NCBI RefSeq assembly: GCF_029945965.1
Contig: NZ_JAQSDO010000006.1
Coordinates: 1-64,000, forward strand
Length of the DNA stretch: 64,000 nucleotides
Source: Thermomonas sp.
GTDB lineage: Bacteria > Pseudomonadota > Gammaproteobacteria > Xanthomonadales > Xanthomonadaceae
Direction of reading: 5' to 3'
Shown here: positions 37,519-41,783 of the stretch, one piece after another
Layout: every line of letters starts with the position of its first letter
How positions within the stretch are numbered: the first letter of the stretch is position 1
Translations under genes and position numbers: made by a program
Notes under the pieces: model-generated
Seen by the model: only the letters and a program-made list of their open reading frames with translations
What the model was told of the DNA's origin: nothing
Databases searched by the model: none

Positions 37519-37605
37519 AGAAAAGGGGTCAGAGTGAATTTCCTGCCGAGGAACATTGATCGTTCGAGGATGTTGGTCAGGAAACTTCACTCTGACCCCT
37601 TTTCT
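37519..37605. mobile_element. 87-bp MITE-like inverted-repeat element
   Basis: Perfect 20-bp terminal inverted repeats (AGAAAAGGGGTCAGAGTGAA at 37519-37538 and its complement at 37586-37605), with further inward pairing (TTTCCTG..AACAT against ATGTT..CAGGAAA). There is no coding capacity. Ends of the GGGGTCAGAGTG type are widespread in Xanthomonadales and may be mobilised by a transposase in trans; no target duplication is evident. Confidence 0.75.
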
Positions 37606-37626: not shown

Positions 37627-38175
37627 TCAGTGTGCCGTGGATGACACGCGGAACGGCAGGATCTTCGCTGCCGGCCGCAAGTGCTGGCGCAGCAGGTCCG
37701 CGGCAAAGTGGAAATCCCGGCCCAGATCCTTGCGGCTGAACGGTGTCTCCAGCTCGCGCAGCGCGACCTCGAAAGCGTTCAGCCCGTTATGCGCGATCAG
37801 CGACCAGACCAGAAATTTACGCTGGTTCATCGACGCGATCAGGCTGCGGTTGCTGTTATGGGCGAAGACGAATGGATGACTCAGCGCGTCGAGTTCGGCC
37901 TGTGCCAATGGACCATCGATCCCGCATGTTGCAAGCAGACCGGCCAACTGCCGCGCGGCCATGACATGCAGCTGTCTGAGGTCGGCCACCAAGCCCGGCA
38001 GCACCAGCACGGTGCCTGTGGCCGCGTTCATCAGCACCACATAAGGATTGCGATCGATGAAATCGATGTCCGCACACCAGGCGCCCAGGGGGTTGTCGCC
38101 GGGCGGTGGCTCCGGCAGTTTCGGTGGTTGGCGCAGGCGCTTGAGGAGTTTTTTGGAGCAGTGGAGGGTGGTCAT
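37627..38175 (-). CDS. DUF6933-like protein
   Basis: 182 residues from ATG 38175 (the frame is open further but lacks a better start). MTTLHCSKKLLKRL is the typical beginning of DUF6933-type proteins, followed by NPLGAWCADIDFIDRNPYVVLMNAATGTVLVLPG. The C-terminal half is helical (NRSLIASMNQRKFLVWSLIAHNG, FHFAADLLRQHL). The function is unknown. It is divergent from the restriction-modification operon and shares a 177-base intergenic region with it, so its expression may be affected by the methyltransferase operator. Confidence 0.6.
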   Translation of the reverse strand: MTTLHCSKKLLKRLRQPPKLPEPPPGDNPLGAWCADIDFIDRNPYVVLMNAATGTVLVLPGLVADLRQLHVMAARQLAGLLATCGIDGPLAQAELDALSHPFVFAHNSNRSLIASMNQRKFLVWSLIAHNGLNAFEVALRELETPFSRKDLGRDFHFAADLLRQHLRPAAKILPFRVSSTAH

Positions 38176-38297
38176 GGACTTATTTTCAGGTGGGGTCACG
38201 CAAAGGACAACCGCCACGTAGACCAAGCGGCGCGGCGGTACGTGTCAACGGTAGTGCGGTTCGAGGAAAGCTGCGCGGCTGGCATCCAGTCTCATGA

Positions 38298-38340
38298 TCT
38301 GGGACGATGACCGGACACCCTGTCCGCTTTCCGTCCCAGA
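38298..38340. promoter_or_regulatory. nested inverted repeats upstream of the methyltransferase (candidate autoregulatory operator)
   Basis: Outer arms TCTGGGACG (38298-38306) and CGTCCCAGA (38332-38340) are perfect 9-bp complements. Inside lies CGGACA-CCC-TGTCCG (38312-38326), also perfect. The block ends 12 bases before the methyltransferase ATG. The inner site has the GGACA-N3-TGTCC form that, from memory, M.SsoII-type methyltransferases bind through their N-terminal HTH to regulate their own operon. This methyltransferase also has an N-terminal HTH. Confidence 0.65.
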
Positions 38341-38352
38341 GATTCCGCCGCC

Positions 38353-39600
38353 ATGGAAGACCCGATTCCCTACCTGCTGGCACTTCGCCGGCATCACTCC
38401 CAGACCGATATCGCCCGCGCACTGCAGACCACCGCACGCACCGTTCGACGCTGGGAATTGCGGGAAACCGACCCGCCTCCTTATTTGCTGGACGCACTCC
38501 GCCAGCGTCTGCTGCTGCCGCAGGCGCAGCCGCCATTACCCGGGAATGCCGCATTCCGCTTCATCGATCTGTTCGCCGGCATCGGCGGCTTGCGAACTGC
38601 CTTTCAGGCGCAGGGCGGCCAATGCGTGTTCACCAGCGAATACGACGCCTACGCGCAGAAGACCTATCTGGCCAACTTCCCCGACGCCATCGACCACATG
38701 GCTGGCGACATCACTCTGGTGAAGGCCAAGGACATCCCCGATCACGATGTGTTGCTGGCCGGCTTTCCGTGCCAGCCCTTCAGCATTGCCGGCGTGTCCA
38801 AGAAGAATGCGCTGGGGCGGGCGCATGGTTTTGCCGATGAAACCCAAGGCACGCTGTTCTTCGACGTGCAGCGGATCATCGCGGAGAAACGCCCGGCCGC
38901 ATTCCTGCTGGAGAACGTGAAGAATCTGGTCAGTCACGACAAGGGCAATACCTTCCGGGTGATCCGTGGCGTTCTGGAAAATGAGCTGGGCTATCACATT
39001 CATTGCAAGGTGCTGGATGGCGGCCATTGGGTACCGCAACACCGCGAGCGCATCCTGATCGTCGGCTTCCGCGAACCGACCGATTTCGACTGGCAGGACG
39101 TGCGCATTCCCGAAGTGCGGCGAGTGCTGGGCGACATCCTGCATCCGCAGGACGGCAGCGAGACGCCGGAAGGCCACTACACCACCGGCCCGAAGGCCAA
39201 GGTGGACGCGCGCTACACCCTCACCCCGAACTTGTGGGCGTATCTGCAGGCGTATGCGGCCAAGCACAAGGCGGCGGGCAACGGGTTCGGGTTCGGGCTG
39301 GTGAACGAGCAGAGCGTGACCCGCACCTTGTCCGCGCGCTACTACAAGGATGGTTCCGAGATCCTGCTGTCGCAGGGCGCGCGAAAGCGGCCACGCAGAC
39401 TGACGCCGCGCGAGTGCGCGAGGTTGATGGGGTTCGACAAGGACTTCGTGATTCCGGTGAGCGATACGCGGGCGTACAAGCAGTTCGGAAACAGCGTGGT
39501 AGTGCCGATGATGACCGCAGTGGCGAAAGTGATGACGCCGCGCGTCATGCAGTTGATTTCGGAAGACCCTCAAATGCAACAATCACTCATGGTCGCTTAG
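38353..39600 (+). CDS. DNA (cytosine-5) methyltransferase, Dcm/M.EcoRII-like, with N-terminal HTH
   Basis: 415 residues. Residues about 5-50 form a helix-turn-helix ([19 protein letters not shown]). The catalytic core shows [14 protein letters not shown] (motif I), FTSEYD (II), [18 protein letters not shown] (IV, nucleophile Cys about 140), LLENVKN (VI), PQHRERI (VIII), [18 protein letters not shown] and [14 protein letters not shown] (IX) and QFGNSVVVP (X). The target-recognition stretch is close to E. coli Dcm, so CCWGG with 5-methylation of the inner C is the best guess. It heads an operon with a 90-residue ORF, vsr and a MvaI/BcnI-type nuclease. Confidence 0.93.
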
Positions 39601-39609
39601 GAGATCGAA

Positions 39610-39882
39610 ATGGAAAGTCGGATTCCTGCTTACGATTCAGCTAACCCGGACGGGATGCTCACGTGGTTTGCTGAAATGTCCGCACGTGGCCTGTTGTTTC
39701 ACCCTGAAGAAGATCCGGCAGAGATCCTGCGCATCGGCACATGGGAACGAACATTCACGGATGCCGAAGCTGACCGAGTGCGTGGGATTCTTTGCAACAT
39801 GTTCGCCCAGCATGGCGACGAAACGATCAGCGCCTGCTGTCCGGTCTTCATGCGTGCTGTCGGCCAACGACTGGATGCCTGA
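39610..39882 (+). CDS. 90-residue protein of unknown function within the R-M operon
   Basis: Starts 9 bases after the methyltransferase stop with GGAGATCG upstream, and its TGA overlaps the vsr ATG by one base (TGATG), so it is embedded in the operon by coupling. Acidic and soluble: MLTWFAEMSARGLLFHPEEDPAEIL, then FTDAEADRVRGILCNMF and a C-terminal CCPVFMRAVGQRLDA. No DNA-binding or nuclease motif. It is GC-rich, unlike the following vsr. It is not a recognisable controller protein; it could be an accessory factor or a passenger. Confidence 0.65.
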   Translation: MESRIPAYDSANPDGMLTWFAEMSARGLLFHPEEDPAEILRIGTWERTFTDAEADRVRGILCNMFAQHGDETISACCPVFMRAVGQRLDA

Positions 39883-40283
39883 TGACGGACGTCGTGGACC
39901 GCGCCACGCGAAGCCGGATGATGTCCGGCATCCGTGGCCGGGACACGAAGCCGGAACTAGCTGTGCGCAAGTACCTGCACGCAGCCGGTCTACGCTTTCG
40001 GCTCAAATCTAGACTTCCAGGGAAGCCTGATCTGGTATTACCTAAATATGAAGCTGCGGTATTTGTGCATGGCTGTTACTGGCATCGGCATGCAAATTGT
40101 CGATTTGCCAGTACGCCATCGTCCAACAAGGACTTCTGGCTTGAGAAATTTGCAGCCAATATTGAGCGCGACAAGAAAGTAAAGGTGCTCTTGCGGAACC
40201 TTGGCTGGCGGCATTTCGTTGTATGGGAATGCCAATTGTCGCCACTGGCACTAGACTCTCTCATACGGAAAATCATCGATTGA
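39882..40283 (+). CDS. vsr: very short patch repair (Vsr) mismatch endonuclease
   Basis: 133 residues from the ATG overlapping the previous stop. It nicks 5' to the T of T:G mismatches produced by deamination of 5-methylcytosine. DRATRSRMMSGIRGRDTKPE (N-terminal helix), LPGKPDLVLP (catalytic Asp), FVHGCYWHRHANC and VWEC (structural zinc His/Cys and active-site His), FWLEKFAANIERDKK. The presence of vsr beside a C5 methyltransferase is classical. Codon composition becomes clearly AT-richer from about 40000 onward, suggesting acquisition from another source. Confidence 0.95.
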   Translation: MTDVVDRATRSRMMSGIRGRDTKPELAVRKYLHAAGLRFRLKSRLPGKPDLVLPKYEAAVFVHGCYWHRHANCRFASTPSSNKDFWLEKFAANIERDKKVKVLLRNLGWRHFVVWECQLSPLALDSLIRKIID

Positions 40284-40293
40284 AGGAATATCG

Positions 40294-41505
40294 TTGAGCG
40301 CACAGCTTGAAGCTTATGCAAGGTTGCTTGCAGATGGCATCGACTTTGAGTCAGCTGAGATCTTCGTAAAGGTGCTTACATCAAATGATGACGCCGGCCG
40401 ACATGGTGTTCTAATTCCAGGAGAATCGTATTCGTTTTTTCCTGACCTCCAGATCCCAGATCCGGCCATCAACGCAACCGTATTGTTTTCCGGGATCGAT
40501 GCGATCTCCAAAGAGCGCAAGGACTTTGGATGGAAGTATTACCAGCGTTACCCGGAACGTCGCGTTACAAGACTGAATCCGTGGTTGAACGAAATGACTC
40601 ACGGACGAAGATTGGCAATCTTTCTGCGAGCGAAAATTCCAGCTGGGCTCGTTACATATTTTGCAGATGCCAGTGTCGAAGGTTTAGATGAAAGATTCGA
40701 CAGGTTGGTCGACATGTTCTTTGGCTCGGATGCTCCATCAAATCCAGGATCGTTCGTGCGTCTGCCAGTCGATGCGCCGAAATTCAGCGTGGATGATGCA
40801 CTTTCAGATCTTCTTCGTCGTTACGACCATGTAAGTGCCTGTGGCTGGCTGGACTCAATGCGAACTGGCTCGACTGGCATTGGATACACCTTCGAGAGTT
40901 TGGTCGGTGTTGAGGAAAATAACGACCAAGGCGCGGACTTTCGGGGTATAGAACTGAAATGCAAGCTTAAACGCGACCACGGCCCAGCCATCGGCAAGGT
41001 CAATTTGTTCCAGCTGGCCCCGCGCTGGACCACCCCGCAATCCAGCATCGAACGTTTGCGGATGATGGGCCGGCAAGATGCGGACGGCCGCTATTCCTGT
41101 TATTCGCAGGTCACCACCACCGCCAATAATTTGGGACTCTGGCTAGGAGTACAACTGCCGCCTGAGGGAATCCACATGCACAAGGATGCCCAGCAGATAG
41201 GAGTCTGGGCGCGTGAGCGTCTCGCGGAACGGCTGGCGGAGAAGCACTCTCGCGCGGCCTTCGTCACAGCGGAATCCAGACGATTGCGTGCTGCCACCCA
41301 ATACAGGTACATCGATCTGGTGTATTGCGAACGGCCCGATATCCAGAAGTTCATTGACATGGTTGATATGCGCCGCATCGTCTTCGAGTTCACGATGACA
41401 GAACGGCCACCCGGACAAGTTCGGAATCACGGCTATCCGTGGCGGCTGGTTGACCCGCGTGAGCTAGGCAGGTTGTTCGCCATGCAGGTGAAATTGCGCG
41501 GCTAA
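40294..41505 (+). CDS. MvaI/BcnI-family type II restriction endonuclease
   Basis: 403 residues from a TTG start (AAGGAA 6 bases upstream), 10 bases after vsr. The core GIGYTFESLVGVEENNDQGADFRGIELKCK (about 193-222, given here with Glu, Asp, Glu-x-Lys as catalytic residues) is the MvaI/BcnI pattern. Those enzymes are monomeric nickases that cut CCWGG or CCSGG. About 190 residues precede the catalytic core, an N-terminal extension of unknown role. The gene is AT-richer than the window average. The rare start codon may restrain nuclease synthesis relative to the methyltransferase. Confidence 0.87.
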   Translation: MSAQLEAYARLLADGIDFESAEIFVKVLTSNDDAGRHGVLIPGESYSFFPDLQIPDPAINATVLFSGIDAISKERKDFGWKYYQRYPERRVTRLNPWLNEMTHGRRLAIFLRAKIPAGLVTYFADASVEGLDERFDRLVDMFFGSDAPSNPGSFVRLPVDAPKFSVDDALSDLLRRYDHVSACGWLDSMRTGSTGIGYTFESLVGVEENNDQGADFRGIELKCKLKRDHGPAIGKVNLFQLAPRWTTPQSSIERLRMMGRQDADGRYSCYSQVTTTANNLGLWLGVQLPPEGIHMHKDAQQIGVWARERLAERLAEKHSRAAFVTAESRRLRAATQYRYIDLVYCERPDIQKFIDMVDMRRIVFEFTMTERPPGQVRNHGYPWRLVDPRELGRLFAMQVKLRG

Positions 41506-41675
41506 GGCGCTTCTTCCGTACCGATCTATCTTGCAGGCACGGCGCGCCACGTGAGGCGCAGCCGAGCATGCTTGGTGAATAGGCATCGAAACGCAAATTC
41601 ACCGCATCACTGCGGCCCGGAAGAGCCAACCCTCCCCTTCAACAAGAGGAGCGGGCGAGAGCATTTGCGCGCGGG

Positions 41676-41708
41676 GTTATACCACCAGATATTTTTTGGT
41701 GGGATAAC
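41676..41708. repeat. inverted repeat downstream of the endonuclease
   Basis: GTTATaCCACC (41676-41686) and GGTGGgATAAC (41698-41708) pair with one mismatch around a T-rich loop. It could be the operon terminator or an operator for the next gene. Confidence 0.55.
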
Positions 41709-41754
41709 TCCTTCTGTCTGAGGACACCGCCAGAATCAGCCCAGATCGACGTTG

Positions 41755-41783
41755 TACGCAAATTCGTATTGATTGCGTATAAC
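41755..41783 (+). promoter_or_regulatory. repeat-containing promoter region of the nucleotidyltransferase gene
   Basis: TACGCAA (41755-41761), TTCGTA (41763-41768) and TTGCGTA (41773-41779) are inverted copies of one half-site, directly overlapping TATAAC (41778-41783), a possible -10. The layout suggests autoregulation of the gene at 41827. Apart from this and the hairpin at 41676, the 320-base gap shows no gene. Confidence 0.5.

Follow-up and report, generated by a model that had tools for sequence, protein, structure and literature searches.

As of 2013, a role in regulation had been proven for just six C5-methyltransferases, by the count given in PMC3695355. In the SsoII and Ecl18kI systems, a C5-methyltransferase with an HTH domain is preceded, at a distance of about 40 bp, by a site with the core GGACA-N3-TGTCC. 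The regulatory site of M.SsoII is reported as AGGACAAATTGTCCT (PMC3978073), and the site of M.Ecl18kI, from plasmid pECL18, is GGACAAATTGTCC and begins at -44. The M.Ecl18kI substitutions R35A and R38A are described as abolishing binding to the site (Kd >4000 nM), with loss of regulation (PMC3695355). The methyltransferase and nuclease genes of these systems are divergent, the Ecl18kI promoters compete, and the target is CCNGG (PMC3978073). M.EcoRII is also described as an autorepressor (PMC3978073; PMC12707154, section 11).

The 64-kb stretch of DNA analysed here (the window) carries a methyltransferase gene, M, with similar features. Its product is 48% identical to M.Ecl18kI over 392 aligned positions, which include the HTH, and belongs to the same subfamily as the EcoRII methyltransferase, and a core of the SsoII/Ecl18kI type, GGACACCCTGTCC, begins at -40 relative to its start. 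Unlike in SsoII and Ecl18kI, however, M lies with its nuclease gene, R, and with vsr in one co-directional operon, and the predicted target is CCWGG rather than CCNGG.

The operon and its gene products

The operon consists of four genes in one direction, with the nuclease fourth: M (38353 to 39600, + strand), encoding a Dcm/EcoRII-like C5-cytosine methyltransferase (PF00145, 1.9e-82) with a predicted N-terminal HTH; an ORF of 90 aa (39610 to 39882, +); vsr, for a Vsr mismatch endonuclease (39882 to 40283, +; PF03852, 3.5e-28; TIGR00632, 6.1e-41); and R, for a UbaLAI-like restriction endonuclease with a TTG start (40294 to 41505, +; PF15515, 5.4e-29). Because the intergenic gaps are short (9 bp, a 1-bp overlap, and 10 bp), the four genes likely share a single transcript. 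The 90-aa ORF, considered as a possible counterpart of the separate small HTH gene of C-protein-controlled systems, matched neither Pfam nor NCBIfam families with E values up to 1; a similar ORF follows M in 20 of 131 homologous loci, counting the window and one duplicate.

No HTH model exceeded the Pfam cut-off in M (the best was HTH_28, 5.6e-4), and the assignment of an N-terminal HTH rests on the M.Ecl18kI alignment and a structural model. The predicted structure has helices at residues 5-11, 17-23, 28-35, and 45-54, and then a linker, modelled at low confidence, at 55-64. Helix 28-35, the predicted recognition helix, contains R29, R32, R33, and W34, of which R29 and R32 align with Arg35 and Arg38 of M.Ecl18kI. 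The N-terminal HTH proposed in an earlier reading from the sequence alone (the sequence-only reading) is retained in this form, as four predicted helices within residues 5-54.

R is predicted to share the two-domain build of UbaLAI. Residues 13-164 match the UbaLAI N-terminal domain (chain 5o63, 1e-39), which we take to be B3/EcoRII-N-like, and residues 171-339 match MvaI (2oa9, 3.8e-7), consistent with an MvaI/BcnI-like catalytic domain. The earlier reading had already placed an MvaI/BcnI-type nuclease and vsr in the M operon; with the N-terminal domain added, the nuclease can be refined to UbaLAI-like. The specificity of UbaLAI is CCWGG, and by analogy with such relatives the target of the window system is predicted to be CCWGG as well. 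The TTG start of R may keep R low.

Two other systems share part of this arrangement. In the E. coli Dcm/Vsr system, M and vsr are adjacent and M is of the same family, but no R lies beside them and the recognition helix of Dcm has lost its R-W; no high-scoring operator was found at dcm, the best candidate reaching 8 of 12 in the score described below. In Burkholderia phage KL3, gp47-gp46-gp45 encode M, vsr, and R in one direction, as in the window, although this R is of the EcoRII-C type, unlike the UbaLAI-like R of the window.

A nested palindrome precedes M

Two nested inverted repeats, with no strand assigned to their parts, lie upstream of M: an outer left arm, TCTGGGACG (38298 to 38306); an inner palindrome, CGGACA-CCC-TGTCCG (38312 to 38326; CGGACA at 38312-38317, CCC at 38318-38320, and TGTCCG at 38321-38326); and an outer right arm, CGTCCCAGA (38332 to 38340). 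The inner palindrome is the predicted operator of an HTH dimer, has the core of the M.SsoII/M.Ecl18kI site, and is kept before homologues. The repeats end 12 bases (38341-38352) before the M ATG at 38353, at the coordinates that the sequence-only reading had given, in an intergenic region of 177 bp between this ATG and that of a divergent gene (38175, minus strand). When the whole was read as a 20+3+20 inverted repeat, 16 of 20 pairs matched, a value reached by 5 of 2,000 dinucleotide shuffles of the 177-bp region (gaps of 0 to 10 allowed). At d=14-18, all five pairs are complementary in the window compared to two of five at the Ecl18kI locus (L132). The only other equally good or better palindrome with 20-bp arms in the 64-kb window is at about 52182 (17 of 20 pairs, gap of 9).

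The window has a single perfect GGACA-N3-TGTCC, and the same place is the only one with zero mismatches among the matches listed, perfect ones first, for the 3.24-Mb genome. Since simple arithmetic on base number alone gives about three perfect sites per genome, the evidence lies in the position and conservation of the site, not in its rarity.

CCWGG is absent from the 177-bp control region (38176-38352). Control of the CfrBI type, through a methylated target in the M promoter, was rejected for this reason, which presumes that the target is CCWGG. No CCWGG is listed in the 1.9 kb that span the control region and the M gene (38090-40016); it is otherwise frequent in the window (242 strand matches versus 146 expected). 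At 37520-37604, inverted copies of AAAAGGGGTCAGAGTGAA lie about 65 bp apart. Allowing up to one mismatch, the genome has 45 copies of this sequence, of which 34 form such pairs; it represents a dispersed REP-like hairpin element.

The inner site is conserved before homologous genes

Homologues were gathered by similarity of the M protein, not by the site, which gave 131 loci and then 46 more (177); the Ecl18kI plasmid locus entered the set via a primer match. Some loci were fetched twice (e.g., L002 and L012), and counts over 131, 156, and 177 contain duplicates. For the first set, the stretch searched for the best GGACA-N3-TGTCC match began 200 bp before each gene and reached 15 bp inside it. 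This match had 0, 1, 2, 3, 4, and 5 mismatches in 41, 30, 23, 22, 14, and 1 of the 131 loci, respectively, whereas the best match inside genes had 1, 2, 3, and 4 mismatches in 1, 31, 64, and 35. Matches with 0 or 1 mismatch were thus found upstream in 71 of 131 loci compared to 1 of 131 inside genes, and in 58 of the 117 non-redundant loci.

A 12-position score combined the inner GACA..TGTC with the outer GG..CC, and sites scoring 10 or more were considered high. High-scoring sites were present in 118 of 156 HTH-bearing loci, compared to 1 of 17 loci without the HTH pattern (at least two of which, L124 and L172, seem to carry an HTH made of different residues) and 4 of 706 control stretches of coding DNA inside genes; the pattern-only loci L133-L147 were omitted from this count. 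The other 38 HTH-bearing loci had no high-scoring site in the stretch searched. In four of the 177 loci (L024, L064, L132, and L170), motif I was not recognised; these were left unclassed, although two of them, L024 and L132, carry perfect sites. Viral contigs contributed six relatives, of which L149-L151 and L153 fall in the class without the HTH pattern.

Of the 91 non-redundant high-scoring sites, 73 were centred 25 to 39 bp before the start. Among loci with an NCBI phylum name, with plasmid and phage records counted apart, high scores were reached by 48 of the 64 from Pseudomonadota, all 6 from Actinomycetota, and the single one from Acidobacteriota, but not by the single one from Bacteroidota. 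This suggests that the same control is common in a large Dcm/EcoRII-like branch spanning at least three phyla. A variant operator, GGACA-AA-TGTCC, with an inner spacer of 2 in place of 3, was seen in L041 and L066.

Residue 32 of M and the bases at ±6

The relation between the recognition helix and the site was analysed with sites located without use of the ±6 positions. Of the 127 loci that scored at least 9, 100 were kept after dropping contexts more than 80% identical. G(-6)/C(+6) was present in 55 of the 66 sites with Arg at residue 32, and absent from the other 11, compared to 3 of the 34 with another residue (Fisher 2e-13). The right side alone showed the same trend, with C at +6 in 63 of 66 versus 8 of 34. 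Where residue 32 was Tyr, +6 was A in 14 out of 14, and in six Arthrobacter-type rows with Ala, Met, or Gly it was A or G. Positions -7 and +7 differed moderately between the residue-32 classes, as did -15, +15, and +18 (p 0.006 to 0.02). The pattern rule misplaced residue 32 in at least one row, L011, which was scored Q and is D by eye; both are non-Arg.

In a tree of the catalytic domain, residue 32 differs within only eight well-supported independent pairs. On average, the base followed the residue in 4.6 of these pairs and opposed it in 0.0 (sign test, median p 0.06). Among the control columns listed, the same/opposite values were 0.7/1.0 at -18, 3.1/1.4 at -15, 0.9/2.2 at -1, 1.1/0.4 at 0, and 0.9/2.0 at +1, and +18 leaned towards the same direction. 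The apparent code between residue 32 and the base is therefore strong in count and direction and rests on few independent events. It provides a testable residue-to-base code for the operator.

Proposed repression of the operon by its methyltransferase

We consider it highly probable (roughly 85%) that M represses its own operon, based on the anatomy of the control region, the conservation of the site, its covariation with M, and the homology of M to proven autorepressors. Two M molecules would bind the inner palindrome via their N-terminal HTHs, using recognition helix 28-35, and R32 would read the first G of GGACA, as suggested by the covariation and by the R38 mutant of the homologue. Operators of the family overlap a -10-like hexamer, and bound M would block RNA polymerase at a promoter serving the whole operon. 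After entry into a new host, M would be made first; once no longer busy on unmethylated targets, it would occupy the operator and hold both M and R low. The flexible linker at 55-64 would let the methylase domains rest on the flanking DNA, the site of the outer repeats. Because repression in EcoRII reportedly depends on the targets being methylated, the signal we favour is titration of M by unmethylated CCWGG sites. Since R and vsr are co-directional with M, repression at the M promoter should lower, and so limit, R also. How a restriction system knows that its new host is safely methylated would in this way become testable with short oligonucleotides.

The outer repeat and its possible reader

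The outer arms were counted at 76 sites located solely through the inner motif, with at most two mismatches and 20 to 100 bp before the start, among the 117 non-redundant of the 131 loci. G was present at -18, -17, and -16 in 67, 89, and 88% of them, and C at +16, +17, and +18 in 91, 96, and 76%. The outer pairs also covary (0.64 versus 0.39 shuffled at d=15 and 0.68 versus 0.47 at d=18, with shuffles that ignore relatedness), and most Arthrobacter-type loci have outer arms of GGGT..ACCC. Judged by this conservation, the outer flank in this branch is sequence-specific. The sequence-only reading had made its proposal depend on conservation across homologous loci, and both the inner and the outer repeats are indeed conserved. 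The outer repeat is a second conserved element, shared by distantly related bacteria, in a flank treated as non-specific in the SsoII model as published in PMC6100179.

Outer arms are also found in other systems. An example is L193, an EcoRII-type plasmid in which residues 2 to 404 of R align with EcoRII (1na6, 1.6e-250) and in which GGGTC..GACCC, at the spacing of the window, surrounds GTGA..TTCAC, centred at -31. The window thus matches L193 in having an outer GGG..CCC and an inner palindrome before M, a feature taken from L193 itself and not from a published definition. L193 differs from the window in its convergent R, its inner half-site, and Asn in place of the key Arg. For the methylase of Streptococcus phage phi1207.3, an outer GTGTC..GACAC surrounds GGACAATTTGACC, though this palindrome coincides with the annotated start, and translation may in fact begin further in.

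The frequency of the base at -17 was the same in both residue-32 classes (0.88), that at +17 was 0.98 and 1.00, and -16 and +16 were likewise independent of residue 32. Because the outer repeat is conserved but does not follow R32, we infer that it is read elsewhere in the enzyme, perhaps by the methylase domain. The tentative reading, to which we give somewhat less than even odds, is that the two M molecules on the inner site also hold the outer arms, through their methylase domains, so that both domains read the operator and it competes directly with the methylation targets. For M.SsoII, PMC6100179 describes HTH domains on the site and methylase domains on the flanks, with a footprint of 48/52 nt, which spans the distance of the outer arms. 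The fixed position of GGG..CCC at ±16-18 in sites picked by the inner motif, the covariation at d=15 and d=18, and the arms in L193 and phi1207.3 fit this, as does the statement that M.EcoRII represses only when its substrate sites are methylated (PMC12707154, section 11). However, in the account of PMC6100179 all specific contacts of M.SsoII are within the site, and flank binding is called non-specific. In addition, the G at -17 and -16 is better kept than that at -18, a poor fit to a plain CCWGG register, and the weaker outer columns differ by residue class (0.62/0.32 at -15, 0.65/0.35 at +15, and 0.79/0.56 at +18), which may be explained by relatedness.

The outer arm could also be seen as an imperfect CCWGG. 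CCWG occurs at +17 to +20 in 35 of 100 sites, but it is completed to CCWGG in only 2 of these 35 on the right side and in 0 of 13 on the left, and its AG may stem from the ribosome-binding site. This idea was suggestive, and it was not adopted because of this confounding.

A second HTH pair on the outer arms, forming a tetramer as C proteins do, is disfavoured and seems quite unlikely. The consensus outer arm resembles the inner half-site (GGGACA versus CGGACA), and the class differences at -15, +15, and +18 would agree with such an arrangement. However, if the same helix read both repeats, the base at -17 should vary with residue 32 like that at -6, and it is unchanged; furthermore, M.SsoII is reported to bind its site 2:1 (PMC3978073, PMC6100179).

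Binding of the outer arms by the methylase domains may be part of a more general design, which we consider doubtful when taken as a whole. HTH-C5-methyltransferases of the Dcm/EcoRII branch would have a two-tier operator, with the inner tier read by the HTH and the outer by the methylase domain, and its occupancy would report saturation of the targets. The code between residue 32 and base ±6 would be re-writable, which would allow such systems to coexist without cross-repression. The outer repeat may then reveal how the enzyme detects that its task is complete. The texts available in the literature searched contain no description of the outer arms or the residue-32 code; older EcoRII, Ecl18kI, and UbaLAI papers are outside its scope, and we do not claim that these features are unpublished.

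The promoter and alternative explanations of the palindrome

In the family consensus, CATAAT lies over the centre of the operator, and TTNNCA is enriched 17 bp before it. This -35 signal is of modest strength, with 20 of 76 sites having at least 4 of 6 bases at a 17-bp spacer. Of 100 sites, 81 have A and 11 have T at the operator centre. This polarity would not be imposed by a symmetric dimer, whereas a -10 box could impose it, which would put the transcription start to the right of the centre. The weak point of the promoter reading is the window's own hexamer at this position, CACCCT (38316 to 38321, + strand), a poor -10. A strict sigma-70 scan of 38150-41760 found no promoter at the operator; it gave one match, at 41103, versus a shuffle mean of 1.9.

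The sequence-only reading had proposed the logic of SsoII for this operon, including activation of the nuclease. The autorepression half is supported by the same HTH type and operator core, a similar distance to the start, both Arg residues, and conservation of the site before homologous M genes. The other half, in which binding of M would free a competing R promoter and raise R as in SsoII/Ecl18kI, is very unlikely here despite the shared HTH and core site, because R is co-directional with M and the divergent gene encodes DUF6933. An SsoII-like layout does exist in this branch, in L032 (a Solimicrobium relative), where vsr and the nuclease are divergent upstream of M, but vsr is on the M strand in 85 of the 89 loci where it was found.

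The palindrome might alternatively act as an RNA hairpin in the leader, for attenuation or translation control. Its RNA fold has -30.3 kcal/mol (z -2.05), and in inner pairs 2-6 there are slightly more G-T than A-C mismatches (16 versus 11). Over the inner and outer pairs of the 76 sites, however, G-T is not favoured (39 versus 46 A-C), and in the outer pairs A-C predominates (27 versus 14). With a -10-like box at the palindrome centre, the left arm should also escape transcription, and the site changes along with HTH residue 32. The position of the -10 box and the lack of an overall G-T excess thus favour a DNA operator, and the hairpin was rejected as extremely unlikely.

Finally, the divergent gene 177 bp away raises the idea that the palindrome is the operator of another regulator, a host factor or one that controls DUF6933, but this is scarcely credible since the site also precedes M where DUF6933 is absent, scores below 10 in 16 of 17 loci without the HTH pattern in M and only 8 of 12 at E. 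coli dcm, and correlates with residue 32 of M itself. The shared control with the DUF6933 gene suggested by the sequence-only reading did not hold up, and the gene was rejected as a partner because it is not conserved: it occurs in 3 of 131 loci, namely the window and one contig fetched twice (L002 and L012).

Partner nucleases in relatives

From the gene content of relatives, the same M-plus-operator module is joined to different nucleases. An EcoRII-C nuclease was found in the four plasmid relatives and the one phage relative that were scanned, and two Thauera plasmids have an enzyme annotated as MvaI/BcnI-family or HNH. The orientation of R also varies, being convergent in some relatives such as L181 and L193. 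In addition, 16 of the 177 M proteins, duplicates included, have a C-terminal extension of about 256 to 275 aa (L003, L022, L023, L025-L027, L042, L063, L071, L072, L076, L077, L085, L095, L120, and L121). The extension of L003, whose M is 89% identical to that of the window, was the one scanned and matches an HNH_2 nuclease domain; M and R therein appear to be fused in one protein.
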